A stretch of 61,872 nt of DNA, taken from contig WION01000306.1 in NCBI GenBank assembly GCA_015039365.1, positions 1 through 61,872 of the forward strand, written 5' to 3'. Source of the stretch: Amanita rubescens. Taxonomy: Eukaryota > Basidiomycota > Agaricomycetes > Agaricales > Amanitaceae. Made by a program: the position numbers and the translations under genes. How positions within the stretch are numbered: position 1 is the first letter of the stretch; each line of letters starts with the position of its first letter. The notes beneath the pieces were generated by a model, which searched no databases, was not told where the DNA came from, and saw nothing but the letters and a program-made list of their open reading frames with translations. This document shows, one piece after another, positions 8,301 to 61,145 of the stretch.

Positions 8301-11300
8301 AATACCGAATTACGACGTCTTCTTCCCATTTAGGCATTGCTTCTTCATCGAGTCGATGCAAGATGCTCCGTATTGATGCCTTCCATTCGTCTTCTTTAGA
8401 GTTACGGAACTCCAGAGTTCTATTCCTCCAGCTTATGATTGGGTCATGCTTCTCGAGCCACGGAAGCCCCAGTATCAAGTTTTGATCGCCAAGCGAAGTG
8501 ACCAAGAACCATTCGGTCATCTTCTTTCCATTGATATCGATGGTGATCAAACACTTGTCAGAAATTTCTCCATTCGTATTGTATGTGCCGTCAACGTTCT
8601 TGACTCGGATTGGTCTTGCGAGTTTCTTCTTTCTCCATTTATGCGTTGTAACGGATGGAATCCTGTTACAGTGTGCAGCATGCTCTGAAGCCTTCCGAAG
8701 ATGTCCTCCGCCATCCACCTTCGATCCGCTTTCCGTCCGCTTCTGTCCGCTTTCGATCCGCTTCGATCCGCTCCGCTCCGACGCGCGGGAATTCGTCGGA
8801 GTACGTCGGATGCGCGGGAATATGTCGGATTATGTCGGACCACAAGCGCATGGTAAGCGCATGGTAGTTACTATAAGTACATGTCACATGTAGTCGTATA
8901 CGATCAGCTACGAACGAGAATCGGAGTCCCCTTCCCCTCAGATCAGCCTTAGCTTAAGTCTGTGCACTATTGTGCATGGCACCTGCAGTGCTGGGTACAA
9001 CCCAGAGCACATTGCAGTGTTTCAGCGTGATTGATGAATTAATAAATAAACCTTCTGCACCGCTGTCAACCAGTGCAGTCATTGATTCAGTGTTGTCTTC
9101 GGTTTCAACTTCGAGGGGAATAGATAATCGATTGCTTGAAATAGAACGTACTATTACAGGTGATATCGAAAGATCGTCCTTTGGAGTTGAATCCGAAGTT
9201 ATGGGACAGGCATCCACTGACATGTGTCCCACTGTCAAAAATCCGGTTTATCCGCGTTGATAAGGAGGTTGATACGTTGATCTGGAGAGAGTTTCTTTAA
9301 CATAGCGCGTATCGTTCTGTCGCTAGTGTCTTCTTCTTCTTCTTCTTGTTCATGCTGGCTAGACTCTTCGACGTCTTCATAGTTACTGCCATCGTCATCC
9401 TTTTTGGTTGCTCGAATATGACGACCGTGTGCGAATTTCTTTCCTTTCTTTCCATTAAACTTCTTCTTTCCTTTGTAAGATCCTTTATCCTTCCTCATGG
9501 GGCATTGTCCTGACATGTGGTCCGGTTTATGACATATGAAACAGAGTCCATCGCGGATATGTCGGGTTCGTTCATCCTTAGATAACGCGCCAAGAATTAT
9601 TGCATCGAGATCCATATCCCATTCGTTTCGAGGGGGTTTGTGTGAAGATGATCCTCCTCTGTTGGTTGCTAGAATGCCAATACGTGTTTCGGCGTTATAT
9701 GCTCTAAGTGCTCCTTCGTACCATTCGTCCAAGGTTTTGGGGTCTCTCATTACGACTGCTCTGTACGTGTTGGCGTCGAGTCCTTGTCCGAACATGTGGG
9801 TAGCGGCACTGCCTGTGATTCCAGCTTTCTTTATCAGTTCTTTGAATAAACCAACGTATTTTGGGATTGAGATTCGTTTTCCTTTCTTGTCTTTTCGTTT
9901 CTGAAGCTGTACTAATTCTGTGTACGTGTTTCCGGGTGAATCTATTTCTTGCCAGTTATTGAGGAATCTGGTTTTGAATCCTGTCCAGTCGGTCCATAAT
10001 ATTTCCGTCTTTGCTGCATCGTTAAGATCGTCGTTCTGATTACGTCTCCAGTTTTCAGCTTTGTCGGTTATCATAGATAACGTCAGTCCGATTTTAAGTC
10101 TATCCGTGTTGATGCGACCTGGATTGAGATCTAGGAATAACTCCATTCGATCTATGAAATCCTGTGCTTGAGATCGCTTTCCTGTGAAGGTAGGGATTTC
10201 TCCTAAGAGACTAGGAATCGGTTGAATTGCTGGCGTTGTCATTGTAACTGTTGGTGGTTCTGGAGGTGGTGTCGGCGGTTTCTGTGGTGGTACTGGTGGT
10301 CCTGGACTAGGATCAGGTTTAGGATCGACTTCTATGTATTGAAGTCCTGGGGAACTCGGTTTCTCCTGTTCTGTTTCAAACGGGTTGAAATCGATTGGGC
10401 TAAGTAAGTCTGGAACAGTTTTGTCTTCCGACTCGGAAAGGTCACTGGAACTTTCGAATTGCTGATCGGGGTTTTCATCACTAGATTCGGTTCCTGATTC
10501 GCTTTCTTGTGTTACTCCAAAAGTTTTACCTTTTAGTGTAGTTTTGACTGCTGCTTTCGGTGTAGAGACTGCGCTTCTGTGCTGTAGGTTTTCGGGTAAG
10601 TTATCTGGGTTTCCTTCTATCCACTTTGGTCCTTTGAAGAAATCGTCTGGTACAAATTCGTATGTGAGTTCTGATTCAGGGCCTGGGTTATATCCTCCCC
10701 AACGTTTGGTATTTTCGTCGAATTCGACTTCAAATCCTAAGAGATAGTATTTGTCGTTGAACCGATGATAGAATGCGTTGTTGGGTGGTCTGTTGGCTCT
10801 CTGTGGTATCCAAAACTCTGATGTTGGTACGAGACTGTGGTCTTTCGCGTATTTCCAAAGGTGGTCCTTAGGGTCGTTGTAGATAGCGATATGATCTAGA
10901 TAATAATGTCCTCTTGTTCCTCTTGTAGCACGATTAGGCGGTATCCTCTGTTGATCCGAAATTGTTGCAAGCTGACCGGTAACCTACGGTGTAACGGATG
11001 GAATCCTGTTACAGTGTGCAGCATGCTCCAAAGCTTTCTGAAGATGTCCGCCATTGATCATCCTTCAATCCGCTTTCTGTCCACTTCTGTCCGCTTTCGA
11101 TCCGCTTCGATCCGATGCGCGGGAATTCGTCGGAGTACGTCGGATGCGCGGGAATATGTCGGATTATGTCGGACCACAAGCGCATGGTAAGCGCATGGTA
11201 GTTACTATAAGTACATGTCACATGTAGTCGTATACATCAGCTACGAACGAGAATCGGAGTTCCCTTCCCCTCAGATCAGCCTTAGCTTAAGTCTGTGCAC

Positions 11301-14300
11301 TATTGTGCATGGCACCTGCAGTGCTGGGTACAACCCAGAGCACATTGCAGTGTTTCAACGGGCCGGTTCTCCGGAAGTTCGATATTTATCTTGTGTTTCA
11401 CCAACGAGGTAATACTCGGGTATCGTTTTGATAAGTTCGACTTAATTGTTATGATCACGTCGATCTCCACCTACGATGCGTCCACGCTAAGAGCGCTTGA
11501 CAAAGTAGACTAAGTCCAACGGACAAGTCAAACAATAGGTGAACGAATAGGCTAAGTGATAAGACAACTAAAAGGAGTCTTATCCTTGAGAGCAATAATG
11601 AACGGAGTAGAAACGACGTTCTTTAGGTGAGATGGGATGTGATATTGATAAAGACAGTTAAGTCGAACTTAAGGTTCGACGCTATGGTACATTGGTTTAT
11701 ATACATGTACAGAAACACAGCCGTATCATAAGTAGAACAAGGGCGATAGCAAGTATAGGTAAAACAAGGGGCATAGGGGATGGTACGCGTATGAACAAGG
11801 AGTTGGGCATAGGGTAAACGGAATGGGGATCGATAAGGGAATGAGGTAGTCCGTCTGATGAACATAATGGGGATGTGACGAAGAGGTAGGCATATACGAA
11901 AAAGTAAGCATGTCCGAGTCCAACGTGTCATGTAATCATAATGTAGGAGTCCGTACCGTGTTTGTAACAGACACTGCAATGTTTCTGCATGGTCAGTATG
12001 AAACACATTCAATTCTCATGACTATGATAGCTTGTGAGTGGCAGTGAACTCATCATTTCCCAGCAGTCTGAATATGTGACCAACAGCAAGTAAGTAATAT
12101 TGCAATGTTCATCAAGCAGGAACTCTGATTGGCACAACACAATGAACAGTCGGTATGGAATTGCATTGCAGTGCTTTAATAAAATTTCAGTCTTTATATC
12201 CTATCTCACAACCAACAGCAAGTCAGTAGCAATACAGTCTTTCTCTGCCTTGAAGTCCAACTACTTCTCATGACATTGACCATAGGTTGTAAGTCACACT
12301 TCAGTTTCTCCTGCCAAGCAATTTTTTCAGGACTCATCTTATGATGAACAGCAGGTGACATGCACTCTTTCTCCACCAGGCAGCCTAATCATGTTTTGTG
12401 CAATAATCACTAGATTGTAGGTGATGGTGCTATGTTGTGCAAGCAGAGAGTCTGATGAAATATGGTTAACAGGTTGTGAGTAACAATACACCATTTTTTT
12501 GGCCAAGCTGAAGCAGCCTGGTCTTGTATTGTCCCATTTTAGGAAGTGAGTAGCACAAACTTTTGTCTACCAGCAGTTCTCTGATGTCTATTGCTTAACC
12601 AACAGCTTGTGAGTGACACTGGAGCTTTGTTTTCTGACAACATCTTCACTCATTTACATGATCCACTGGCAGAATCCACAGGAAGTGAGTGGTAATGAAA
12701 TGATGTGATCACATCTTATCCAATGGCCAACAGCAGGTGAGTGTCACTACAATCCTATCCTTCCAGGCAACCAGGTTAATCTAATTTATGCTGATTTTAA
12801 GCAAGTATGTGGCACTTTTTTCAGATAGTCTAATTACATACATGCCATACTAATCATGACCAACAGGAAGTGAGTAGTACCATCATAGTGACTTTCTTCC
12901 ATGGCCTTTGATTGAATCCCTTCCCATGACCAACAGGAAGTGAGTTAGACATGAGTGATATTCTGGCAGGCAGTCTGATCACACTTGTCATATGTCCAAC
13001 AGATGGTAAGTGACTCTGTGACCTTTTTATGCAAGTCTAATCATTGTAATTTCATGGCTGATAGAATGTGAGTGATGCTCCAGTTTTTTTTGCCAAGCAA
13101 TCTCATCTCATCCCATCCAATGGCCAAAAGACTGTGAGTGATGCTGAACTTTTTTTCCAGCCAGCATAATTACTTGTTATGCATTGATAATAGCTGGTGA
13201 GGGCAATGCAATGTCCTTTGTCACACTGTCTGATCATATCAAATGATCACACCCATGACTAACATAATTGCATAATGCATTCCATGGAGCACAGACAGTG
13301 AGTGGTATTGCACTTTGTTTGTGCCTGGCAATTTAATGACATACATATCATCCCATTGCCAACAGCAAGTGGGTGACACTTCCCTGCTAATCTTTCAGCT
13401 CATACCATCCCATGATGATAGGGAGTGAGTCTGAGGCATTCTTCTGTCAGGAAGTTTAATCAAATGCTGTTTTTTCATAAAGGTTGTGAGTAATGCTACA
13501 GTGATCTTCTGCTGTGTACATGATAAAATCTTGTCTTATGACTAACAGCTACTGGTGATACTGCAATTTCTGTCTTTCTGCCACTCAACCTTCTCACAAT
13601 AAATAGGCAGTAAGTGACAATACTATTGTCCTTATTCTACTGCCAGCCATATCTCATAAAATTGCCAACAGTATGTAAGTAATGCAGCCTTTTTATGTTA
13701 AACAATTGAATCATATCTCATTATACATTACCAATTAACAGCAAGTGAGTGATAATGTGGTTTTTTGTTCTGGAAAGTGTGATTCCACACCAAACAGTCT
13801 GTGCATCTCCAGTGATTTTTGCAAAGCAATCAGTCACATGTCTCCCAATACAAAAAAGCAAGTGAGTACTTGCACAATATTCCTTTTCTAGTCAATCTGA
13901 TCACATCTCCCAATGAGCAACAGATTGTGAGCAACATTGTACTCATCTTAGAACTTTAATCACATCATATCTCACAACTGACAGCAAGTGGGTGGCACTG
14001 TACAATATAGCTTCCAGGCAGTTCAATCAAAGCTCATCCCATGCCCAATAGCAAGTTAGTGACACCACAGTATAGCTCTGCAATGCACTCTAACCACACT
14101 GTATCCCATGATGGGCAGCTTGTGAGTACAACATTAATCTTTTTTCATGCCAACCAGTCTCATTTAAGACCACCAGGATGTGAGTGACACAACATGTTTT
14201 TTTTGATTCCATTTAGCTTGATCATGTTGCACCTTATAACAAACAGCAAGTCAGTAGTTTCAGCCATATAATGTGATATATCCTAATTCCATTCACCAAC

Positions 14301-15101
14301 AGATTGTTGGTTACACCACTGTTTTCATTGTCCTGCAACCTGGTCTGACTATATCTTATACCTTGATGGACAGTGTGTGAGTAATAACATAATGTAGCAT
14401 TGGATCTGATCTGATCCTTATACAAATAGGCTGTGAGTAACACTTGCAACATTTCCTTCCATGGAGTCTGATCACAACCTATCCCATTAAATAGCAAGTA
14501 AGAAAATATATTGTCTTTTCTATCTTCTTCACTGTCTCACCCTCAATTATCCATAGATTGTATGGCATTATACATGGCCTTCACAGTACATTCTGATGTC
14601 ACATTTGTTATCTTACTGGTTCTCTAGGTCAGTGGTAAACACAAAAGAGAACTGATATGCATGCTAATGAGCACTTAGCTTGTGTGCTCATTACCAAATT
14701 AAGTTGATATTCCACTCATTCTAGTTGCTAGACTGGACTTCTCTCTTTGTTTGGAGATGATCCATCAAGTTTTGAAGAAACTGTAAGAGTTATATTTATC
14801 CCTGTAGTACATAGCTGACATAATGTAATCAGCCTGTAGCCTTCCAAATCTTAGTCTGTAATACACCAATGCTTTGATTTATGTTTTTTAATTAACATTA
14901 CACATACAAGCAATGACTATCCTTGCCAAGCTGTCATTTTCCATAAGGAAGCCACTCCTTATGTCATTACAAGATGCTCTTGACCAGTTCAAGGAACAAG
15001 ACTATATGGGCAAACTCAAGATGCAGATTACTTCTGAATCTTTGCCTTCTGACAAAAAAGTGTTGGCTACCTTTCTGTATGATTTGGCTATCTGCATCTA
15101 A
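1..15101 (+). CDS. Array-bearing GTPase-family gene, copy 1 (5' end off window; split by Ty3)
   Basis: Only the microexon array and the 3' exons are in the window; the G-domain exons would lie to the left. Assignment rests on homology to copy 2 at 27.9-35.0 kb. After the array, an exon at 14732-14782 (17 codons, phase 0, starting TGLLSLFGDD) matches SELLSMFPEY of copy 2. A terminal exon near 14911-15101 (AMTILAKLSFSIRKPL... ending LAICI, stop TAA) matches IIIIAKLSFWISLPFL of copy 2. The join between these two exons is doubtful. The only AG near 14911 would give CAA TGA, so the terminal exon may have lost its acceptor and this copy may be decaying. A 9.63-kb retrotransposon also sits inside one intron-like unit. 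Function is unknown beyond the GTPase family membership inferred from copy 2. Confidence 0.6.
2340..2856 (-). repeat. Ty3 LTR (3' LTR in element orientation)
   Basis: This 517-bp copy matches 11447-11969. It lacks 6 bp that the other LTR has (CGAGTC after GCATGTC) and differs at about eight positions. It starts TGTTATGATC and ends TTTGTAACA. A purine-rich tract lies immediately inside it on the element strand. Confidence 0.95.
2861..2869 (-). other. Polypurine tract of the Ty3 element
   Basis: On the minus strand the sequence just before the 3' LTR is AGAGGAGAG followed by CTAG, a plausible plus-strand primer. At the opposite end I see no TGG-initial tRNA primer-binding site next to the LTR, so the minus-strand primer is unclear. 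Confidence 0.5.
2906..5191 (-). CDS. Ty3 ORF3, unknown function, split by a solo LTR
   Basis: Downstream of pol are a 187-residue frame (4628-5191; Pro/Thr-rich start, then a helical region with ALQILTKRIDLMI) and a 501-residue frame (2906-4411) whose core runs from about 4085 down to 3365. The core includes RLTRLWRILSDARL and AIALADLADRIKEIAE. The two frames share codon phase if the 4085-4632 insertion plus 4 bp is removed, which suggests one ORF of some 430 residues or more. A second frame (4392-5198) overlaps the first part. No transmembrane segment is visible, so an envelope role is not supported. The Pro-rich tail below about 3360 may be a shadow of the small ORF at 2985-3362. Confidence 0.5.
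2985..3362 (-). CDS. Small coiled-coil ORF at the 3' end of the Ty3 element
   Basis: This 125-residue frame starts MEGNAEQTQQ and contains a likely coiled coil (IIKLLKEENRRLKVLHKLL) followed by acidic and polar sequence. It overlaps the tail of the 501-residue frame at 2906-4411 in another phase. Its composition is more protein-like than the Pro/Ser-rich overlapping frame, so it may be the real terminal ORF, or be joined to ORF3 by a shift. I do not recognise the family. Confidence 0.45.
   Translation of the reverse strand: MEGNAEQTQQTPTISNAASASTPSAFNISAFDGRERLARIHQEISDFLHYQSHVRLFAATSLPPTVPRPDDESKERIIKLLKEENRRLKVLHKLLNSLEANNEELVQTYTDTPTDWNAGGWNQDE
4085..4632 (-). mobile_element. Solo LTR inserted in Ty3 ORF3
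   Basis: On the minus strand it starts TGTAACGTACCGATTCC and then GGTTACGTTGTGCAGCA, resembling the start of the 8647 and 10990 solo LTRs. It ends near TGTCCGCC/GTACA at 4085. It contains repeated CGACGGTGACGGAGT-type segments. I could not find a clean target duplication, so the exact ends are approximate. It interrupts ORF3. Confidence 0.55.
5239..9237 (-). CDS. pol: Ty3 pol polyprotein with C-terminal chromodomain, interrupted by a solo LTR
   Basis: The protease starts on the right of the insertion (LVDSGAEGLFINSS near 9040-9090) and continues on the left (LGLPWLEKHDPIISW near 8440). Then follow RT with YMDDILIH, RNase H with LETDASKWAVGAAL, the integrase zinc region (HEAPSAGHPG to CLTCQQMK), the integrase core (TMDFITDLP, DRGPQF, QTDGQTERYN), and a chromodomain at the C terminus (FLVKWKGYDTSENTWEP), which in chromoviruses directs insertion. 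The frame starts about -1 relative to gag at a run of five T before the gag stop (near 9238-9245). The 8647-9024 solo LTR, with a GCGT duplication, breaks the protease after SSIT. Left of the break the frame is open for about 1,135 codons. Confidence 0.95.
8647..9024 (+). mobile_element. Solo LTR (378 bp) inserted in Ty3 pol
   Basis: It starts TGTAACGGATGGAATCC and ends GCAGTGTTTCA, with TG...CA termini, and is flanked by the 4-bp duplication GCGT (8643-8646 and 9025-9028). It is near-identical to 10990-11357. The orientation shown is that of TG...CA reading on the plus strand. It splits the protease domain of the host element. Confidence 0.85.
9235..10989 (-). CDS. gag: Ty3 gag with CCHC zinc knuckle
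   Basis: The first methionine visible is at 10242, giving 335 residues, but the same frame is open upstream to the solo LTR at 10989. That upstream part has an acidic/Pro-rich segment and DPKDHLWKY near 10880, so the native protein is probably longer and its start is not identifiable. The retrotransposon gag domain lies around 10200-9700 (IPTFTGKRSQAQDFIDRM, RFLNNWQEI). The zinc knuckle CFICHKPDHMSGQCP lies near 9530, followed by a Lys/Gly-rich and acidic tail. The stop at 9235-9237 sits next to the TTTTT run where pol continues in the -1 frame. Confidence 0.9.
10990..11357 (+). mobile_element. Solo LTR (368 bp) inserted upstream of Ty3 gag
   Basis: Same family as 8647-9024, with ends TGTAACGG...GTTTCA. 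It is flanked by the 4-bp duplication ACGG (10986-10989 and 11358-11361). It separates the Ty3 leader from the gag frame. Confidence 0.85.
11447..11969 (-). repeat. Ty3 LTR (5' LTR in element orientation)
   Basis: This is the 523-bp partner of 2340-2856, starting TGTTATGATC and ending TTTGTAACA on the plus strand. It is followed by the target duplication GACAC and then by array sequence that continues the interrupted intron-like unit. Confidence 0.95.
11970..14600 (+). repeat. Intron-like unit array with 3-nt microexons, copy 1, right part
   Basis: About 40 units at a mean spacing of 65 bp continue the array cut by the Ty3 element. Triplets include CTT at 12031, TCG at 12150, ATG at 13003, AAT at 13065, GCA at 13607, TAT at 13672, TGT at 14373 and GCT at 14430. 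One unit (13549-13554) has six nucleotides, CTA CTG, before GTGATA, which preserves the frame. Donors include GTGAGT, GTAAGT, GTCAGT, GTGGGT and GTTAGT. No stop triplet was seen. The last units grade into the 3' intron before the exon at 14732. Confidence 0.85.
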
Positions 15102-15824
15102 TGGTGTGCACTTCACTTATGCTCTGAAAGCTAGCATTTACCTTTACTAATCCACATAGATGTGGCCACCTGCAAAGGGAAAAATCCCTTTCTTTCCCAT
15201 ACCTTTGGTTGCAATCTTTTCCTCTTACTATGCTTTCATCAATAAAACTGTACTTCCAAAGCTCTTTAGCCTGAATGATTCTCCTACATAGTATATGATG
15301 ATGTTCTTGTATACTGTTGGTTTGACAAATTTGACCAACTACCATTTTTCAAGTTATAACATTGACACTTAGTAAGCTGCATATGAGCAAACATTTCTGC
15401 ATTGGTCTAGTACATTCTTTCAAGTGGCAGATCTTTTGCAATCTCCCCCAGTCTTTCAAATGAATGTGTTTCCTGAGGAGCCAGCCCGCACTGTAATGAC
15501 AGTGATACATATACAACCATAACTGCCACTATTATATTTATGGACTCGGAGGCCTTCCAACCAGCATATTAGGATAAATGTGAAAAAAATGACAGGCAGT
15601 GTTGGCTGCCAATGCCCATTTTAAACCTTCTTTCCTATTCTCATTACAGTTTGCTTTCACCATGAAACAAATCAGATTGCCTAGTACTTCTAACATAAAC
15701 ATATAGTAACACACCAAACATCATAGTCCATTCAGATACGAAATACCCACCGTTTTGCTGGTAATACAGAACTCTAGTCCTATGGACCACATAATTAACA
15801 AAAACTACTAGCATAATTTCACAA
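15102..15824. other. No gene recognised between copy 1 and SF3b2
   Basis: This is AT-rich intergenic DNA between two genes that converge on it. It presumably holds both 3' untranslated regions. I see no conserved ORF, repeat or mobile element. Confidence 0.5.
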
Positions 15825-27884: not shown

Positions 27885-30800
27885 ATGCTAAATAAGCAAC
27901 ATGGGAAGAAAAATGTTATTCGCTCAATACTGGGAAAGTTGGCCCAGACATACAAGCAGGAATCAGTAGGCAAGGCAACCCAGATACAAACTCATGTTCC
28001 TAGCACAGCTATGGCAACTGGTGCACCTTCTTTGAGTTCAAGTAGGCTAATTTATGTGGCTCAGCCTAGTGACTGATATATATATATATGATTAGATCCA
28101 GATGAAGCACATGTTCAAATACTCAGGGAGCGCTATTTATGCCCACACTTTCGCATCCTTGTCATTGGAAGGGCTAATGCAGGCAAGACAACTATCCTTG
28201 AGAAGGTTTGTGGTGTAGCAAAGGCAACAAACATCAGGAAAATTCTGGTTTGGCTTATGCACTTTGGGGACTTAAAATGTCTTTCCTGCCTTAGTGATAA
28301 AAATGGCTAAGACCATCCTAAGACTCTAAGTGCATTAAGGTCATTGATTTTTACCTGATTTTTTCCAAGTCCAAGATAAGGCCATTGACAATGGTCATGT
28401 CTTATATAAGTCTAAGTGTCTTTGTCAAGTCAAAATAAGTCACTAAGCTTGGCGTGGGAAAGTGAGAAAAATGCGAATACCTCATTAACTAAGCCATTTT
28501 TGGCAATTCTGATTTTAGATTTGGGTTTTTCGACATCAAGAGCACCACTTTGATGTCACGTGATTATTACGTAATACGTTCCCACGGTCAATATGGTCCG
28601 TGCGCATGACCAAGGTATATAAAGGAGGGCCTCTAGACCCCCTCCCATGCCCCAGGTGCCCAGGGACTTCTCATAAGGCATCAGTTAAGTTGTACTAAGT
28701 CAAGCTAGAAAGTAATTAAGTCAAAAGAGTAATAAGTTACTAAATAAGTAGTAATAAGTGTAAAAGTACTTAAAAATCAATGCCACTTTTTTTGACCTTA
28801 TTTTCGGCTACTTAAGACAAGATAAGGATCATAAGACTATCACCTACCAAATAAGTGGCAAAAAGCACTTGTAAGTCGAGCACCTGCAAAATAAGTTGCA
28901 GAAAGTGCAAATAAGCGGTAGAAAGTGCAAAATAAGTGGCAGAAAGTGCTTGTAAGCCAAGCACCTGTAAGTGGTGCCAGTAGGCTGGGTTTGGCTTCCA
29001 AAAGTCCCCAAAAATAAGTCAATTAAGTCAGCTTTTTTATTTTAAGGCTCTCAAAAGAGGGGGGGGGGTGCCTTATTTTACTTATATAAGTCAAAAATAA
29101 GTCCACAATTTGGTAACTTAAAAATTACTTATTTGTCTTATTTAAGTCAATAAGTCCTGATAAGGCAACCCAGAATTCTCCTGATGAAGCCCATCATATA
29201 TGACAAGGATGGTGAGTCAGTCTAAGTTTTGTGCTTCCTTTGACTGTTAAGTTTCTTGCAGGTAAACAGCTTGAGCAGTCTGTGATTCATTTGATGCCAT
29301 CAGTTGAGGTGAGTCAGATAATGAATAATGATGTTTGGATGCACCTGTTCACATGCTTGAATGATAACAGAGGGGGCTGCATGATATTGAGCATCAAATT
29401 ACATACCCTGGAAGTAACTTTATCTTCCATGACTCTCAGGGTTTTGAGTCTGGTTCAACTGAGGAATTGGAGATTGCTTGGAAGTTCATTGAAAAGAAGT
29501 CTGCAGAAACTGAACTGAAGAATCAACTGCATACAATTTGGTATCTTGCTTTACCCCTTTACAGTAATGGCTGACCTGGTTTCCTGCAGGTACTGTATAC
29601 CCATGGACAGCCCTCGTCCCATTCTACCTGCAGAACTTGAATTCTTTAATAAAGGGACAGGCCAAGGTAAGTCCTAATGACTTCATATCTCATCTTGAAG
29701 TTGGTTTTGGAGAGATTGTCTTAACTATTGTTACCTCCTTTCCATTGGCTAACTCTTGCCACAAATTCTACTAGTACTGACTAGCAAATATTTCCTTCAC
29801 AGTTCCTTTGGTGGTTATATTCACTAAATTTGATGGTCAAATAGCCAGTGAATTTGTCAACTTGACTGATGCAAATGATGAAGATAAGTGGGCAAGAGCC
29901 AGAGAAATTGCTGAAATCACTTTTCAGAACATTTATCTCCCTAAAGTTTTGGATGCCAAATACCCTCCCAAAGCATATGTGCGATTGGAAGGTGAGAAAG
30001 ATGGGGTTTCTTCCCAAAAAAATGGGAGTAATGCTGTTTCATAGACACAGATTTACCAGAAAATAATTGTGCTGAATTAACTCAGCAAACTGCTGGTGCA
30101 ATAGATGATGACAGCATACATCAGCTGTTTGTTTCAACACAGATGAATAATGTTGACCTTTGTATTAAATCTGCACTTCAGTGAGGGTCACATAAATTTG
30201 TCACTTACTAACATTGACATAGTTCAGACATGTTCTGAAATATAAATGGGGATGGGATACTGTCATTCTCATAGTTTTTTCAAAATTTCCACATTTCTGG
30301 GTATACCTTTTTGTGAAACTGCACATCAGCATAGGAAAAATTAAATGTCAATAGGTGTCCAGGGGGGTAGGTAGCCTACATATGGATTGAAAATTTTTTG
30401 AAAAAAGTTCATTCATAGGTAAGTAATACTCCAATACCTTCACACAAAAATGAGATTAGTCATGCTTCAGATGGTCAATAAAGAGAATGAAACACAGGTT
30501 AGTTTTTACCATATTTTGGTGGCAGGATTTAATATTATTGATACCAGTGGGTAAGTGACATTGAACTATCATAGACCTGACATATTGTCTGATGACAACA
30601 GTTTGTGAGTAATACTTCCCGTTGTAATCAGCAATCTTGTCCCATGATCTACAGGAAGTGAGTGACATCATCAATTTTGATTTTGATTATCCCATGGTGA
30701 TCGTATGACCAAAAGGAAGTGAGTTAATTATCATTGTAAGCAGACTTGTCACCAATCCAGTCTCTCATGCACAGGGAGTGAGTACTAATACAGCACTGCC

Positions 30801-33800
30801 TCACACTGCATCTAACTTGCTTAAAGAAAGTAAGCAACATTATGTTTGTGGAGTTTATGAGACATGACTGAATGAACAATAGAAAGTTGGTGACTACTGT
30901 TATCTGAAAGAGAGTCTCAACAAATTTCATTGGATTAATAACAGGAAGTAAGTGACATTTCCTCCATTTGCCTATAAACATTACATCTTGTCCCAAAACA
31001 ACAGACAGTAAATATTTGTCCTTTTCAAAGTCTCTTCACAAGCCATTGCAAAACAAACAGGATGTATGTATATTTTGTGAGATGTGAATTCATCATATGA
31101 AATACTATGGAAAAAGAGAGTCAGTGGCATTGTTCTCTTGTTTCCCTACTCATCATGTTAATTTCATTCTATGTAAAAGGAAGTGAGTGATGCTGGTCAC
31201 TCTGATGCAAGATGGTTTAGAAACATTATTTTGTTCTACAGATTGTAGGTGATTGCAGGTTTTGTGAAAGGCAGTGAAATCACATCTTTCCTTATAAACA
31301 TAGAAGGTTAGCAGCATGTCATCCTGGTCTAGTGGTTCAAAAAATGACCTTATCCAATTTTTTGCCTGTCCAACAGTATGTGAGTAACATTGCAAATTTT
31401 CTGAATAACTGTTCTTATTTTCCCTATGACTAACAGGGAGTGAGTGACATTGAAGATTTTGTGGAAGGCAATCTCATCAGATCTGGACCTACATATGAAC
31501 AACAGCAAGTGAGTGACATTGAAAGGGAGTCTCAGCTGAAGATCTTTTCATATGACAAACAGAAAGTGAGTGACATGGAAAGGCAGTCTCATCACATACT
31601 TTCCTATGACCAACAGGAAGTGAGGGAGACTGCACATTTTGTGAAAGGCAGTCTCATCAGATCTTTTCCTATGACCAACAGGAAGTGAGTGACGTTGAAA
31701 CTGGGAAGGGCAGTCTCATCACATATTTTCCTATGACCAACAGCATGTGAGTGACATTGAAAGGCAGTCTCATCACATATTTTTCCTATGACCAACAGGG
31801 AGTGAGTGAGATTGCACATTTTGTGAATGGCAGTCTCATCACATCTTTTCCTATGACCAACAGCGAGTGAGTGAGATTGGACATTTTGTGAAAGCAGTCT
31901 CATCACATCTCTTCTTATGGCCAACAGTTTGTGAGTGAGATTGGACATTTTGTGAAACACAGTCTCATCAGATCTTTCCTATGACCAACAGGAAGTGAGT
32001 GACAATGAAAGGCAGCCTTATCAGATCTTTTCATATGACCAACAGCAAGTGAGTGAACTGTGAGATTGTACATGTTGTGAAAGGCAGTCTCATCATATCT
32101 TTTCCTATGACCAACAGCTTGTGAGTGAGATTGCACATTTTGTGAAAGGCAGTCTCATCACATCCTTTCCTATGACCAACAGCTTGTGAGTGAGATTGCA
32201 CATTTTATGAAAGGCAGTCTCATCACATCTTTTCCTATGACCAACAGGGAGTGAGTGGGATTGCACATTTTGTGAAATGCAGTCTCATATGTACATCTTC
32301 TCCTATGGCCAACAGCTTGTGAGCAAGATTGCACATTTTGTCAAAGGCAGTCTCACCACTTTTTTCCCTATGACTAACAGCAGGTGAGCACCATTGCACA
32401 TTTTGTGAATGGCAGTCTCATCACATCTTTTCCTATGACCAACAGCGAGTGAGTGAGGTTGGACATTTTGTGTGAAGGCAGTCTCATCACATCTTTTCCT
32501 ATGACTAACAGGATGTGAGTGTCATGCACATGTTATGAAAGGCAGTCTCATCACATCTTTTCCTATGACAAACAGCAAGTGAGTGCACATCTTGGGAAAA
32601 GAAATCTCATTACATCTTTTCCTATGACCAACAGTATGTGAGCCTTGAGATTGCATATCTTGTGAAGGGCACTCCCATCACATCTTTTCCTATGACCAAC
32701 AGTTTGTGAGTGAGATTGCACATTCCATGAAAGGCCATCTCATCACATCTTTTCCTATGACCAACAGCGAGTGAGTGTCATTGCACATTTTGTGAAAGGC
32801 AGTCCAACTCATCACATTTTTTCCTATGACTAACAGGTTGTGAGTGAGATTGCACATTTTGTGACAGGCAGTCTCATCACATCTTTATCTATGACCAACA
32901 GTTTGTGAGTGAGATTGCACATTCTATGAAAGGCACTTTCATCACATCTTTTCCTATGACCAACAGGATGTGAGTGACAGCAGACATTTTGTGAAACACA
33001 GCATCATCAGATGTTCTCCTGTGACCAACAGCAAGTGAGTGAGATGATTTCACATTTTATGAAACAGTCTCATCAGATCTTTTCCTGTTACCAACAGCTT
33101 GTGAGTGAGATTGCACATTTGTGAAAGGCAGTCTCATTACTTCTTTTCCTACAGTATGTGAGTGATAGTGCACATTTTGTGAAACACAGTCTCATCACAT
33201 CTTTTTTATGACCAACAGCAAGTGAGTGAGATTGCACATTTTGTGAAAGGCAGCCTCATGACTCTCACCATATTTTTTCCTACAACCAACAGCCAGTGAG
33301 TGAGATTGCACATTTTGTGAAACACCATCTCATCCCATCTCTTCTTATAACCAACAGCAAGTAAGCAAGATTGCACATTTTGTGAAAAGAAATTTTATCA
33401 GTCTTTTCTTATGATGAAACAGAGTGTGAGTGACAATGCATATTTTGTGAAACAGTCTCATCAGGCTTTTTCATATGATCAACAGCGAGTGAGATTGCAC
33501 ATTTTATGAAAGGCAATCTAATCACATCTTTTCCTATAAACAACAGGATGTGAGTGAATTGCACATTTTGTGAAAGGCAGTCTCATCACACCTTTTTCTT
33601 ATGAACAATAGGAAGTGAGTGAGATTGCACATTTTGTGAAATGCAGCCTGATCACATCTTTTCCTATGACCAACAGCGAGTGAGATTGCACATTTTGTGA
33701 AAGGCAATGTCATCATATCTTTCCCTATGACCAACAGCAAGTGAGTGAGATTGCACATTTTGTGAAAGGTGGTTGCATCAGATCTTTTCCTACAACCAAC

Positions 33801-35049
33801 AGCAAGTGAGTGTCATTGCACATTTTGTGAAAGGCAAGTCTCATCAGATCTTTTCCTATAACCAACAGCAAGTGAGTGTCATTGCACATTTTTCAAATCA
33901 GATCTTTTCCTATGACCAGCAGTATGTGAGTGAGATTGCACATTTTGTGAGATACAGTCTCATCACATCTTTTCCTATGACCAACAGCGAGTGAGTGACA
34001 TCCCACATTTTGTGAAAGGCAGTCTCATCATATCTTTTCCTATTATGACCAACAGGATGTGAGTTCTTGAAGAGTGCACATGTTGTAAAACAAAGTCTCA
34101 TCACTGTATCTTTTCCTATGACTAACAGGAAGTGAGTCTACATTTTGTGAAAGGAGTCTTAGTATCACAGTCTCTTCTTCTATGTACAACAAACAGTTTG
34201 TGAGTGCCAGAGATTGCACATTTTGTGAATGGCAGTCTCATCTGAGTCACATACTTGTCCTATGACCAATGGTAAGTGAGTGACATTCATGCACATTTTC
34301 TGACCTGCATTCTCAGCATACCACAATTCATGAATGTTTCATACATATATGTATAGCAGACAGTGAGCATGTTGCACATTGTCATATCTTTTCCATTTTC
34401 ATGTTTACTTTGGCACTATTATCATCATAGATTGTAAGATTTCATTTCACCCATGTGACACACCTCATGTCATCATTTCTCTCACTTATGTGACTTTCCT
34501 TGATTTCCAGGTGAGCAACACTAGTTCATGAAGTATTGATTTTGATATTCATCTGCATGGCAGCTTGTAGGTCCTATAATACTACATTGTATATTTTATC
34601 CCTTCTCATGGTCAGAGTGAACTTTTATCAATGTTTCCTGAATATGGGAAAAGTACATATGAAGTGATTGAAGGGGACTTCAGTGTGGTCAAGGTATTTT
34701 TGTTTTTTTTATGGGGTAGTGCACAACTCATGCCATTGCAACAAGCCTAATCATTGCCAAGTCTTAGTTTGTAAACTAATCCTTTCATTTAACATATTTA
34801 TGCTTAAAGTTTGAAGCAATTATTATCATTGCCAAGCTATCCTTTTGGATCAGCCTACCATTTCTGGCCTCAGCTGACCGAGCCTTGCATCAATACAAGC
34901 AAAAAGGCTATTTTCAGAAGTTGGAGAAGACTGATATCACTCCTGATGTTTTGCACTCCAGTCATCAAGACTTGTTCACATTACTCTATCAGCTGATTAC
35001 TCACATTGATGGTAGGTACTTTGTCCTGTCATGCAGTACTTATGAATAA
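27885..35049 (+). CDS. GTPase-family gene with one-codon microexon array, copy 2
   Basis: Readable exons: 27885-28041 (MLNKQHGKKN...); 28096 to about 28228 with P-loop GRANAGKT; one ending at 29211 (IIYDKDG-like); 29262-29308; 29371-29540 with RGLHDIEHQ and the G3-like FHDSQGFESGSTEE; 29590-29666 (YCIPMDSPRPILPAELEFF); 29803-29991 with G4 TKFD (VPLVVIFTKFDG); 30051-30180 ending IKSALQ-like. These are the G1, G3 and G4 motifs of a fungal P-loop GTPase family. The array follows (about 30420-34600), then exons 34616-34693 (SELLSMFPEYGKSTYEVIEG, phase 0 at both ends) and 34810-35049 (FEAIIIIAKLSFWISLPFL...). A 0.93-kb insertion lies next to the P-loop exon and the frame across it is unresolved. 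The last G-domain exon ends in phase 2, so the junction into the array is also unresolved. Function unknown. Confidence 0.75.
28229..29161. mobile_element. AATAAGT-rich insertion with an 8-bp target duplication
   Basis: The sequence AAGGCAAC occurs at 28221-28228 and 29162-29169 and flanks 933 bp that break homology to the GTPase family. The insert is full of AATAAGT/ACTTATT motifs, has GGTATATAAAGGAGGG near 28615 (TATA-like) and a run of nine or more G at 29059. Terminal inverted repeats are weak (ATCAGGA near the left end, TCCTGAT at the right end). An 8-bp duplication suggests a hAT-like non-autonomous element. Related ACTTATTTT-rich sequence forms the foldback at 60.9 kb. Confidence 0.55.
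30420..34600 (+). repeat. Intron-like unit array with 3-nt microexons, copy 2
   Basis: About 62 units at a mean spacing of 66 bp. In the central part (about 31400-34260) the units are near-identical: CCTATGACCAACAG, three variable bases, GTGAGTGAGATTGCACATTT, then TGTGAAAGGCAGTCTCATCA and CATCTTTT. The triplets nevertheless vary: GAA, CAT, GGA, CGA, TTT, CAA, CTT, CAG, GAT, TAT, GTT, CCA, AGT and others. At both ends the units are more diverged. CATAG|GTAAGT (about 30419), ACACAG|GTTAGT (about 30499) and TTCCAG|GTGAGC (about 34512) abut acceptor and donor with no exon. The only stop-like triplet, TAA at 34273-34275, follows TGG where CAG is expected. Confidence 0.9.
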
Positions 35050-56101: not shown

Positions 56102-59100
56102 ATGTCAGCGAATCCTCCTTGGATTGGGAATACTAGTATCTTTGCAGGATACCAGAATGCTGTTATTACAGATAGCCAATTTATCGAGGTTCTTGAGTTT
56201 CAGCCTTTTCATATGTTTCATCCCAAAAACTTGTTGAACTTATAGATTAACTACTATATTACAAACTCCTCTGACACTGATCTGCCTCCTTTGCCTCCTA
56301 TAAAAAATTCTAGTACTTTCTTCACAGGCCGTGATGAATACTTGGAGAAGCTGAAGGATCACTTTACCTCCAATATTGGATGTCAAAGGACAACTTTCCT
56401 TTTGCATGGTTTAGGTGGCATTGGCAAGACTCAGATTTGCCTCAAATTCATTGAAGAATGTGCTGGTCTGTGAGTATTTTAAACATTAGTAATTCAAAAT
56501 AATTGAACTACAATGTATTCAAGGTTTTCTGACATATTCTGGATTGATGCTTATTCAGAGAAAACTGTTGAATTTGTACTCACACAGATATCTTCAACCT
56601 ACAATACTTCATCAGATGGCAAACCCTCAGTCAGATCTGCTCTTGAATGGATTTCCCAAAGGCCCAACTTTCTGATGATATATGATGGAGCAGATGGGCA
56701 TTACTCAGTAGTTGAAAAATTCCTCCCACCAGGACATGAGGGAAACATCATGATAACAAGTAGGAATATTGGGTTGAAGAGGTTTACATTCAGGAACTCA
56801 ATGGAGATTCATGGCATGGATGATGAAGATGCCATTTCCTTGCTTCTGAAGTCAGCCATGTTTGATGACACAGATGATGATATCTATAATCTGGCCCTGC
56901 AACTTGTGTCACAATTGGGTGGAATCCCTCTTGCAATTGACCAAGCAGGAGCATATGTATATGCATTCCTGTGGTTGCAGCATTAATGGTTATTTGGAAT
57001 TGTACACAAGACACAAGGATAAATTAATGGAGAATACTCCAGGATTTGGAGGTGCTTCAGATTATGGGACATCTACATTTGGGACATGGGACATTTCCAT
57101 GAAAAAGATGGAGGATATGGCTGCAAAGGATAATTTGCAGGAATCTGCTGGAGCACAAACTGCTATCAAGATCTTGAGAGTCTTTGCTTTCCTAGATCAT
57201 ACAAATATACCACAAGAATTATTCAAATATGCTGCTGAGAACTACACAAAAAGACATATTGAGAATTACATGCATTTTTCATCATCATTGAGTTTGCTGG
57301 ATAATGAAACTTTGTTCATAGGAACAGATGGAGAGTGGGATAAATTGAAATTTCTACATGGCATTCAAGTTTTACTCTCATTCTCTTTTATCAGGAGTCC
57401 CAATCACCTGTACTCCATGCACCTACTAGTAAATGCCTGGAGTAGGAACTGCATACCAAAGGCAGAAGTTGCTGATTGCTTTTACGGAGCAAGAGCACTG
57501 TTGTCCTGCTCAATAGCTCTTGACTGGAATCTTGATAATTATGAATTCTGTCAATCACTTGCACCACATGTTAGATCAAACTTTGTGCATGGGTTGGAAT
57601 TAAAATTGAACAGCAAGTATTATGATGATGAATATGCAAGATTTGCACTCATATTCAATCATGCTGGGAGCTGGGATGAGGAAGAAAAATTGTTACATGT
57701 TACAATTCATCAAAGAAAAACACACCTTGGATTGGATCACATAGACACTCTTGTCAGCATGGGCATCTTGGCATCAACATACAGGAATCAGGGAAGGTGG
57801 GATGAGGCAGAGAAGCTGCAGGTAGAAGTGATGAATAACCCAAAAGTAAAGCTGGGATCCAACCACCCAGGCACTCTCACAATCATGAGCAATTTGGCAT
57901 TAACATACCAAAGTCAGGGAAGGTGGGATGAGGCAGAGAAACTGCAGGTGGAAGTTATGAATACACAGAAATTGAAGCTTGGATTAGACTATCCAGGCAC
58001 TCTTACAACCATGAGCAATTTGGCTTCAACATACCAGAATCAGGGAAGGTGGGATGAGGCAGAGAAGCTGCAGGTAGAAGTGATGAATACACAAAAAGTC
58101 AAATTGGGATCAGGCCATCCAGGCACTCTCACAACTATGAACAATTTGGGATTAACATATTGGTCCCAAGGAAGGTGGGATGAGGCAGAGAAGCTGCAGG
58201 TAGAAGTGATCAATGCACGGAAAGTAAAGCTGGGACTAGATCATCCAGGCACTCTCACTACCATGAGCAATTTAGCACTAACATATGAGAGTCAGGAAAG
58301 GTGGGATGAGGCAGAGACACTGCAGGTAGAAGTGATGAATGCACAGAAAGTGAAGCTGGGATCAGACCATCCAGACACTCTCACAACCATGAACAATTTG
58401 GCATTAACATACCGGAATCAAGGAAGGTGGGTCGAAGCAAAGATGCTGCAGGTGGAAGTGATGAATACACAGAAAGTAAAGCTGGGATTAGACCACCCAG
58501 GGACTCTCACAACCATGAGCAATTTGGCAGTAACCTACCAGAATCTGGGAAAGTGGGATGAGGCAGAGAAGTTGAAGGAAGCAGTGATGAATACACAAAA
58601 AGTAAAACTGGGATTAGACCATCCAGACACCCTCACAACTATGAGCAATTTGGCATTGACATACCAGAATCAGGGAAGGTGGGATAAGGCAGAGACACTG
58701 CAAGTAGAAGTGATGAATATATGTAAGGTAAAGGTGGGATCAGCCCATCCAGGCACTCTCACTACCATGAATAATTTGGCAACAACATACCAGAACCAAG
58801 GAAGGTGGGATGAGGCAGAGAAGCTGCAAGTGGAAGTGATAAACACACAGAAAGTAAAGCTAGGATCAGACCACCTGGCAGGCACTATCACAACCATGAA
58901 CAATTTGGCAACAACATACAAGAATCAGGGAAGGTGGGATGAGGCAGAGAAGTTGCAGGTAGAAGTGGTGGATATACAGAAAGCAAAGCTGGGATTAGAC
59001 CACCCAGGCACCCTCAAAACCATGAACAACTTGGCATTAACATACTGGTCTAAGGGAAGGTGGGATGAAGCAGAGAAGCTGCAGGTAGAAGTAATGAATA

Positions 59101-60452
59101 CACAAAAAGTGAAGCTGGGATCAAACCATCCAGGCACTCTCACTACCATGAGCAATTTGGCACTAACATACCAGAATCAGGGGAGGTGGGATGAGGCACA
59201 GAAGCTGCGAGTAGAAATAATGAATACATGGAAAGTAAAGCTGGGGCCAGACCATCCAGCCACTCTCACAGCCATGAACAATTTGGCATTAACATACCAG
59301 TCTCAGGGGAGGTGGGATGAGGCAGAGAAGCTGCAGGTAGAAGTGATGAATACATTGAAAGTAAAGTTGGGATCAGACCATTCAAGTGCTCTCACAAGCA
59401 TGAGCAATTTGGCAACAATATATCAGGCCCAGGGAAGATGGGATGATGCAGAGAAGCTGCAAGTAGAAGTAGTGAATACACAGAAAGTAAAGCTGGGATT
59501 AGACCATCCAGGCACTCTCACAACCATGAGCAATTTGGCAGTAACCTACCGGAATCAAGGAAGGTGGGATGAGGCAAAGAAGTTGCAGGTAGAAGTGATG
59601 AATATGCAGAAAGTGAAGCTGGGACCAGACCATCCTGGCACTCTCACAACTATGAGCAATTTGGCATCAACATACCAGAATCAGGGAAGGTGGGCTGAGG
59701 CAGAGACACTGCAGGTAGAAGTGATGAATACACAGAAAGTAAAGTTGGGATTAGAACATCCAGGCACCCTCACTACCATGAGCAATTTGGCAATAACATA
59801 CCACTCTCAGGGAAGGTGGGATGAGGCAGAGAAGCTGCAGGTAGAAGTGATGAATACATGGAAAGTAAAGCTGGGATTAGACCATCCAGACACTCTCACA
59901 ACCATGAACAATTTGGCAACAACATACCAGAATCTGGGATGCTGGGATGAGGCAGGGAAGGTACAGGTAGAAGTGATGAGCACACAAAAAGTAAAATTGG
60001 GATTAGACCATCCAAGCACTCTCATAACCATGAACAATTTGGCATTAACATACCAATCTCAGGGAAGGTGGGATGAAGCAGAGAAACTGCAGGTGGAAGT
60101 GATGAATAGACAGAAAGCAAAGCTGGGATCAGACCATCCAAGCACTCTCATAACCATGAACAACTTGGCATCAACATACCAGAATCAGGGAAGGTGGGAT
60201 GAGGCAGAGAAGCTGCAGGTAGAAGTGCTGAATACACAGAAAGTAAAGCTGGGATCAACCCATACTGACACTCTCACAACCATGAACAATTTGGCATTCA
60301 CATACCAGAATCAGGGAAGGTCAGATGAGGCAGAGAAGCTGCAGGTGGAAGTTATGCATGCATGGAAAGTAAAGCTTGGGTCAGAACATCCAAACACCCT
60401 CCAAGTCATGGCCAATTTGGCCTTGACAATATACAAGTCAGAAAAGGTTTGA
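56102..60452 (+). CDS. NLR-like NB-ARC protein with C-terminal TPR array
   Basis: A first exon (ATG 56102) encodes NTSIFAGYQNAVITDSQF, like the N termini of agaricomycete NLR-like proteins. The NB-ARC part has FFTGRDEYLEKL, P-loop LLHGLGGIGKTQICLKF, then, after a 52-nt intron (about 56470-56521), FSDIFWIDAYSEK, FLMIYDGADG (Walker B-like), NIMITSRN and GGIPLAIDQAGAY. At about 56955-56965 the frame must shift (TATGTATATGC; a 4-nt excess or 1-nt loss) to continue as HSCGCSINGYLELYTRH. A helical region and about 22 TPR units follow. STAND proteins of this type act in non-self recognition in fungi. The shift may be a real lesion. Confidence 0.85.
57664..60440 (+). repeat. 126-bp TPR repeat array (about 22 units)
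   Basis: After one diverged unit (WDEEEKLLHVTIHQRKTHLG) there are 21 near-identical 42-residue units of the form GRWDEAEKLQVEVMNTQKVK plus LG.DHPGTLTTMSNLALTY. This is the TPR_10/kinesin-light-chain-like type. Variation is concentrated at a few positions: after TY (Q, W, E, R, K, H), the next residue (S, N, A), before QK, after LG (S, L, P), and after HP (G, D, S, A). Unit 9 (near 58870) carries a 1-residue insertion (DHLAGT). Confidence 0.95.
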
Positions 60453-60894
60453 TGAGGCAGAGTCTTTACTATCTTGTGCAGTCCACACTATGCAACAAGT
60501 TATGGGATCTCAACATCAAATTACACACTATTATGAGCAAGAACTGAACAAGCTTCTCAAGGCCAAGTAGAAAAATTAGTGCAGGGTACAGATACTAATG
60601 GCTTCAGTACCTGCAATGTCATATGTATAAATGTGGAATGTGGAAAGCAGCAATCTTGTCTGGATACATATGCCATAGTAAAGTAGTGTATTAAACATTT
60701 CAATGTCAGAGCACCTGAGTATTCCCATGTGTGGTTCAGAAGCAGTCACTAATTCTGGCAGCAATTTGGTAACTTACCCTGATCATCAGATCTAACTCCC
60801 TCTGCAGCCAAGAACAAGTCATCATCCTGGGCCTACTTCTTTATTTGCTTCAGGCAATTGTAATGGGAGCCCAAAAAAGTATTTTCAGGTCTCT
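60453..60894. other. NLR-like gene 3' region, no gene
   Basis: AT-rich, no recognisable ORF or repeat. Confidence 0.35.
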
Positions 60895-61145
60895 CTCTCT
60901 CATAAAATAAGTCATTTAAGTAAAAAAAGTGCAAGACTTGCCTTATTTTGCATTATTTTTCCTTATTCTGACTTATTTTGGGCTTAATCTAACTTAATTT
61001 ATGAAAGGGTTGTGAGGTATTTGACTTTGGTAAAGTTAAGTTAGATTAAGCCCAAAATAAGTCAGAATAAGGCAAAATAAGGTAAAATAAGACAGGTCTC
61101 ACACTTTTTTTTACTTAAATGATATTTTCAATTAAGTAAAAAAAA
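60895..61145. mobile_element. Foldback (inverted-repeat) element
   Basis: The left arm has AAGTGCAAGACTTGCCTTAT and then CTTATTCTGACTTATTTTGG with GCTTAATCTAACTTA. The right arm repeats these in reverse complement (TAAGTTAGATTAAGC, CCAAAATAAGTCAGAATAAG). A spacer of about 35 bp separates the arms. This is a MITE-like palindrome. Its ACTTATT-rich composition resembles the 28229-29161 insertion. Confidence 0.75.

Follow-up and report, generated by a model that had tools for sequence, protein, structure and literature searches.

The genome of the agaric basidiomycete Amanita rubescens encodes a large family of GTPases in which the region between the GTPase domain and the C-terminal part is broken, as a trait of the family, into arrays of up to about 70 exon-like units of exactly three nucleotides (nt), set apart by intron-like sequences. 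The stretch analysed here, 61,872 nt long (contig WION01000306.1 of the GenBank assembly GCA_015039365.1; referred to below as the window), very probably contains a member of this family, in which each 3-nt unit is a predicted exon adding one codon to a linker of the encoded protein. The case is carried by the one-codon length of the units, the stop-free triplets, the conserved ends, and two contiguous sequences that match two loci of the family. These two sequences are likely mRNAs of sister genes that join the units in order, and the window copy is therefore predicted to splice likewise.

Intron-Free Sequences Matching Sister Loci

The JGI protein P0113 (285 amino acids (aa), 1099-nt contig) runs unbroken from the GTPase domain to the second C-terminal exon (C2). 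Its alignment with the sister locus L037 (C328) requires 48 introns over 103 residues (FTWEDTAIVV through KFSIT); their median length is 61 nt and their range 48–106 nt. Forty of the exons delimited in this way are 3 nt long, and 39 of them give the P0113 residue; the remaining ones comprise three of 6 nt and one each of 9, 12, 15, 30, 51, and 54 nt. Residue identity amounts to 100/103, and one stretch of the P0113 C2 is present letter for letter in L037. Against other sister copies, the matches were 38–39 out of 41 (L033, L034, and L036), 29 out of 36 (L035 and L030), and 36 out of 37 (L038). The second JGI sequence, P0121 (156 aa, 2135-nt contig), aligned with L039 (C207) through 60 three-nt exons, 53 of them identical, and three six-nt exons; four of the seven misses fall at its ragged start.

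These alignments were complemented by a protein-blind test, in which the codon string was predicted from the splice sites alone and then compared with the protein, with 500 shuffles each. The predicted strings were identical to the protein at 54/66 residues for L039, 43/53 for L037, and 36/53 for L034, with scores of 87, 68, and 46 against shuffle maxima of 8, 8, and 7, respectively. A check for an intron-free genomic copy, made for P0113 only, revealed none among the 150 matches listed, all of which start at or after residue 81 of its 154-residue tail; the array corresponds to residues 1–80 of that tail. The P0113 and P0121 contigs are likely assembled mRNAs. The sequence-only reading of the window had proposed dozens of consecutive introns with one codon gained per unit in the mature mRNA, a proposal supported for the two sister genes and extended to the window copy as a prediction. 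Two other sequences, P0025 and P0002, carry conserved 5′ codons in one frame (WFEHGKKDTDKQIVYDG and WFEKGKKESDREIEYDG), like the 5′ microexons of A. rubescens (WFEQGKKETDREIKY).

In such genes, splicing would likely proceed by intron definition, with the introns excised successively, since an exon of 3 nt cannot accommodate the complexes of both its splice sites simultaneously. Because each exon amounts to one complete phase-0 codon, the frame survives when a unit is skipped, lost, or gained.

Splice Signals and Coding Constraint on the Triplets

The spacing of the units was examined by a splice-chain search in the window and 20 further loci (21 sequences), which used donor and acceptor matrix scores only and allowed exons of 1–45 nt at no cost. 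The matrices were trained on units found by a 3-nt-spacing pattern, with the spacing itself left unscored. The search returned 781/820 internal exons of exactly 3 nt, the others being 13 of 6 nt, 13 of 2 nt, 7 of 4 nt, 3 of 1 nt, and one each of 16, 18, and 33 nt, so that small symmetric exons (3 or 6 nt) account for 794/820. In the window it found 47 introns, with 45/46 internal exons of 3 nt. Fifteen Markov shuffles (three loci, five each) gave chains of one intron (14 shuffles) or three introns (one shuffle). The array introns have GT, rarely GC, donors and AG acceptors, and the donor and acceptor consensus flanks the microexons on both sides. A few GC donors (GCAAGT, GCAGGT) were seen in the L037 and L034 arrays matched by P0113.

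The 5′ part of the arrays is old and could be aligned over 15 positions in 20 sequences (L022 and L027, whose stretches lack the GTPase end, were left out). At the exon positions of L009, 298/300 microexons in this part are 3 nt long, and on average 40% of the introns deviate from the modal length. Identity was 0.959 in splice-site columns, 0.884 in intron bodies, and 0.896 in microexon columns. Hence, what stands out is the exon length and the splice sites; the codons of the old part are hardly more conserved than the introns among such recent copies. In four old arrays, intron identity has fallen to 0.53–0.56, as compared to 0.50–0.52 in shuffled sequences, and 76/82 chained exons are still 3 nt long.

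The 781 triplets include one TGA and no TAA or TAG, although independence of the three positions would predict 32.7 stops. T at the first position is rare where a stop would result (1/417 vs. 89/364; Fisher p = 2e-31), and CAA (145) and CGA (112) lead the triplet counts, a single C-to-T change being enough to turn either into a stop. A or T occupies the third position of 94% of triplets in the 21 loci vs. 77% of 510 ordinary codons from the same family, and avoiding NAG beside GT would account for only part of this bias. As to codon choice in the triplets, Arg is nearly always encoded by CGA, Gly by GGA, Gln by CAA, and Glu by GAA.

Anatomy of the Window Locus

The features of the window locus are listed in Table 1. 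The GTPase exons, modelled by NCBI as P0130 (F5887DRAFT_903638, Amanita rubescens), show the P-loop GRANAGKTT and the motif FTKFD, and the last of them ends in ..KSAL followed by CA/gtgagg. A tandem array of units with exactly 3-nt exons in a GTPase-family gene had been proposed from the sequence alone, and 62 such exon-like units were located, with a median intron length of 62 nt, at coordinates fixed by alignment to a peptide read from the array itself, which does not constitute an independent test. The recurring core that had been described, an acceptor-like CAACAG, three bases, and a donor-like GTGAGT, was seen as well, and Tandem Repeats Finder (TRF) reported a period of 65 bp with 39.7 copies at 31578–34137. 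Units of about 66 bp had been described; the first 15 codons belong to an old part, whose family version is W F E Q G K K E T D R E I K Y, and most of the units after them are mutually similar at ~65 bp. Near 34260, the acceptor of one unit has been lost, so that this unit falls within an intron of 160 nt.

Table 1. Features of the window that belong to the GTPase family, with positions in the window.
Feature	Positions	Strand	Remarks
GTPase (G) domain exons with ordinary introns	27885–30180	+	Start 27885 as given by the sequence-only reading; 30180 is the last exon base
Insert of ~955 bp inside a GTPase exon, after the P-loop	28232–29186		
72-nt exon HVLKYKWGWDTVILIVFSKFPHFW	30229–30300	+	Family form HVLK...FPHFW; segment also in P0025, P0002, P0001
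12-nt exon VSRG	30355–30366	+	VDRE in most paralogs seen
27-nt exon MVNKENETQ	30471–30497	+	
15 single-codon exons W F E E G K K E T D R E I K Y	30548–31379	+	One-to-one alignment across paralogs
47 further single-codon exons	31437–34566	+	Most in ~65-bp mutually similar units, core CAACAG NNN GTGAGT
C1 exon SELLSMFPEYGKSTYEVIEGDFSVVK	34616–34693	+	P0121 counterpart DELFSMFGDGQRNFAVK
25-nt exon PNHCQVLV+T, phase 0 to phase 1	34746–34770	+	Compared with P0121 (PTDCQVLV) and P0113
C2 exon (S)IIIIAKLSFWISLPFLASADRALHQYKQKGYFQKLEKTDITPDVLHSSHQDLFTLLYQLITHIDG	34817–35013	+	
Second, old array of single-codon exons	12034–14556	+	26/29 internal exons of 3 nt
C1 and C2 of the second array	C1 from about 14732; C2 14913–15086	+	

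The array lies between the G-domain and C-terminal exons, as had been stated, although three ordinary exons (72, 12, and 27 nt) separate it from position 30180. The 27-nt size of the last of them is shared by the window and L029, and in the other paralogs the exon measures 30 nt and reads MANEQLSEAQ or similarly. Between VDRE and this exon the family has a V or E codon, for which the window retains no exon. For the junction of the GTPase part with the array, a 4-nt exon following SALQ was considered and ruled out, as P0025 and P0001 show the 72-nt and 12-nt exons. Downstream, the C-terminal exons are in phase, as had been claimed, once the 25-nt exon is included; the apparent clash between the phases of C1 and C2 was removed by this exon, seen in P0121 and P0113. 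C2 is present downstream of the array in 20/20 paralogs, although in L023 the stretch ends within this exon.

State of the Window Copy and Points against the Single-Codon Exons

Several observations weigh against the view that the triplets are spliced exons. Frame-breaking exons of 1, 2, or 4 nt make up 23/820 exons of the splice-chain search, 21 of them in L010 and L019. One intron in the old part of L026 is 9 nt long, too short to splice, and the codon before the 27/30-nt exon is TAG in 2/20 sequences. The RNA origin of P0113 and P0121 is inferred from their intron-free frames, the database label being only “jgi”. The 5′ pieces of P0025 and P0002, compared with L039, L032, L028, and L018, span 13–17 three-nt exons, of which only 7–12 are identical, and the pieces therefore come from other genes or species. 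Four sequences (P0002, P0014, P0017, and P0025) stop short of C2, possibly through intron retention or because the contig ends or is truncated. In an earlier residue-shuffle control for L030, at least 1 of 20 shuffled array parts equalled the observed score; this control was uninformative, as the aligner could re-choose exons, and was superseded by the protein-blind test. The last two points concern the window copy itself: its GTPase exon carries the 955-bp insert, and among the public proteins listed in the searches, none represents a transcript of this copy. With both in view, the window copy may be inactive, and its expression is a prediction.

The insert is absent from the close copy L029, which is 97% identical to the window copy over a 38-aa piece and 93% over 4.9 kb of DNA, and also from L009, L010, L023, and L025. 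Visual inspection of its ends (CATCAGGAAAATTCTGG and CCAGAATTCTCCTGATG) suggests that it resembles a DNA transposon; the repeat search did not list them as an inverted repeat. AATAAG-type repeats within the insert resemble those at 60938–61091. We consider it somewhat more probable than its opposite that the window copy is a dead or dying member of the family, in which the architecture is present and an element in the GTPase exon blocks the full protein. Apart from the position of the insert after the P-loop and its absence from L029, this is indicated by the P0130 model, which bridges the insert using residues that relatives lack, and by the lost acceptor of the unit near 34260. On the other hand, none of the 62 triplets of the window is a stop, and the insert could be removed by splicing, or the copy could be a haplotype variant.

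The Gene Family in the A. rubescens Genome

The exact unit core occurs 2177 times in the genome vs. two occurrences of the reversed pattern; among these cores, only the GTPase-family loci were read. The GTPase-end exon and the C2 exon have at least 150 genomic matches each, counts that are lower bounds. C2 was found downstream on the same strand within 16 kb for 126 of the 150 listed GTPase ends (24 remained unpaired), at distances of 2.2–13.7 kb with a median of 3.8 kb. An array-sized gap between the GTPase end and C2 is thus the rule where the pair was found.

The window itself holds a second, old array followed by its own C1 and C2 exons (Table 1). GTPase motifs were sought at 11001–15300 and none were found, and this second family member (12034–15086) is probably 5′-truncated. 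Two similar repeat clusters with CTTCGATCCG-like and ACGTCGGA-like motifs, at 8711–8839 and 11063–11173, flank the region of 9.2–11.0 kb and are possibly the ends of a mobile element. Elsewhere in the window, at 57768–60462, a 126-bp (42-codon) tandem repeat of 21.4 copies lies inside an open frame of 1200 codons, which we take to be a TPR/kinesin-light-chain-type repeat gene.

Divergence and Origin of the Arrays

In the young arrays, intron bodies are 0.78–0.99 identical and triplets 0.31–0.67 (21 arrays), with a sharp edge at the splice sites. L028, for instance, has 68 units with intron bodies 0.98 identical and triplets 0.35, and the triplets differ in 1784/2106 pairs of units whose introns are at least 96% identical. 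Comparisons between loci gave varied results. L009 and L017 have 5′ flanks that are 99.9% identical; only 2/2093 intron-body bases changed, yet 2/37 codons did, and the difference consists of two adjacent codons, ATC GGA vs. CGA CGA. L009 and L015 differ in 5/37 codons, L011 and L018 in 18/26, and L012 and L018 in 7/14, the introns of the latter two pairs being 1.6–2.5% apart. No change at all was seen between L020 and L021 or between L026 and L027, and in the pair L023/L024 codons changed at 0.042 per site and introns at 0.043. The behaviour of these three pairs means that fast codon turnover is not universal.

Growth of the arrays by block duplication of codons was considered and rejected, as the longest repeated run was within the range of shuffles in 5/7 arrays. 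The number of shuffles (of 300) reaching the longest run was 0 for L018 and 8 for L016, the two exceptions, 22 for L019, and 41–240 for the window, L028, L011, and L023.

Two accounts of this pattern each fit part of the data. According to the first, which we put forward tentatively though as a serious candidate, the arrays would form a codon-cassette system: single codons would be exchangeable between near-identical introns, and recombination among more than 100 arrays would rewrite the GTPase linker codon by codon with the frame kept, a eukaryotic diversity generator in which the exon is the codon. It would involve the exchange of one-codon units between near-identical introns, rewriting the codons, together with selection for different residues, and is favoured by the whole-codon swaps and the third-base bias. 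According to the second, possible if rather doubtful, a normal linker exon was split between codons by repeated introner-like insertion, so that the triplets would be old codons and the introns recent copies. Introns up to 99% identical beside triplets that are 31–67% identical, with the sharp edge between them, are consistent with such an invasion, and the lack of block-repeated codons in 5/7 arrays favours it. However, the bias of the third base in triplets relative to ordinary codons argues against it, and the swap between L009 and L017, with introns near-unchanged, looks like unit exchange.

Predicted Product and Use of the Exons

The AlphaFold2 model of the relative P0022 (24 sequences; mean predicted local distance difference test (pLDDT) score of 78) shows a confident GTPase domain and C-terminal helices, and residues 293–358, which align with the array product, have a pLDDT below 50. 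The predicted product of the array is thus a linker, variable and disordered, that joins the GTPase domain to C-terminal helices forming a domain of their own; a role of this linker in recognition would be a guess. The best genomic match of P0022 in A. rubescens reached 62%, therefore P0022 is probably from another species. Foldseek with this model returned immunity-related GTPases (Irga6/IIGP1, GM4951) first, with E about 1e-5 and a template modelling (TM) score of 0.30–0.43, a match that is weak overall and establishes neither kinship nor function. Pfam searches with the pieced G-domain and C-terminal queries gave nothing above curated cut-offs.

The JGI proteins P0022 and P0023 are nearly identical in their GTPase and C-terminal parts, but their linkers differ in sequence and length. 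Together with the symmetry of nearly all array exons, this could mean that the arrays serve alternative splicing, any subset of exons being skippable in frame and one gene yielding many linkers. We regard this as unlikely: P0113 includes all exons of the L037 array, and P0121, from the point where it begins, includes those of L039 (single sequences in both cases), and P0022 and P0023 may come from two genes. It is very improbable that the array is a satellite-like repeat within one large intron, its splice-like motifs being by-products and the mRNA skipping it as a whole, since the near-identical tandem units of the young arrays, the missing transcript of the window copy among the listed proteins, and the NCBI A. 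rubescens models P0130, P0001, and P0053, which end before the array or skip it, are set against array codons in order in P0113 and P0121 (a contradiction for L037 and L039 if the contigs are RNA), the avoidance of stops in triplets, and an exon length that stays at 3 nt where introns have lost nearly all likeness.

Relation to Known Systems and Significance

Micro-exon genes (MEGs) of Schistosoma have exons of about 6–36 nt, and their products are secreted proteins with a signal peptide. The A. rubescens family protein starts with a GTPase domain. MEGs are described as fast evolving, with a coding region composed largely of very small symmetrical exons (PMC4350168). The A. rubescens array exons are likewise small and symmetric, but they are single codons in runs of dozens, belong to a fungal GTPase gene, and are separated by introns that are sometimes near-identical. 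The bicycle/megacycle genes of aphids are reported as a large, fast-evolving family with many small exons, megacycle having more than 100 microexons for about 2000 aa; these exons encode peptides and are almost all at phase 2 (PMC9168663). In contrast, the A. rubescens exons are one codon each, at phase 0, and the protein is unrelated.

Introners of fungi and algae are reported as near-identical introns multiplied within a genome (PMC4457414, PMC9860276), and near-identical introns likewise occupy many positions in the A. rubescens arrays. A word search of the text of PMC9860276 found no mention of Amanita, basidiomycet-, tandem, short exon, or microexon. Introners occur as insertions in many genes genome-wide, whereas in A. 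rubescens the copies follow one another at intervals of 3 nt within a single gene family. A 3-nt exon has reportedly been found in Drosophila homothorax. Exons of 1 nt are reported to be spliced in Arabidopsis and in a Fusarium P450 gene (PMC4674806, PMC12940212). The ultra-short exons of Arabidopsis, Fusarium, and Drosophila are single, and those of A. rubescens form arrays.

Tiny exons, microexon-rich genes, and copied introns are each known separately. The sequence-only reading knew of no described gene built in this way, and searches of an open-licence full-text library listed microexon-rich genes, single 1-nt or 3-nt exons, and introners but no array of single-codon exons. What sets the architecture apart is that its unit is the codon; on a stricter view it would count as microexon genes taken to an extreme. 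The array is also the likely reason that NCBI models of family members, such as P0130 and P0001, terminate at it or upstream of it.

If true, the finding breaks the working rule of peptide-sized exons, with 3-nt exons rare. About 20 nt of intron are kept per nt of coding sequence, and the origin and use of introns are therefore testable in one family. The arrays would also provide a natural system for asking how a spliceosome excises 60 introns in the right order when the exons between them are too short for anything to bind.

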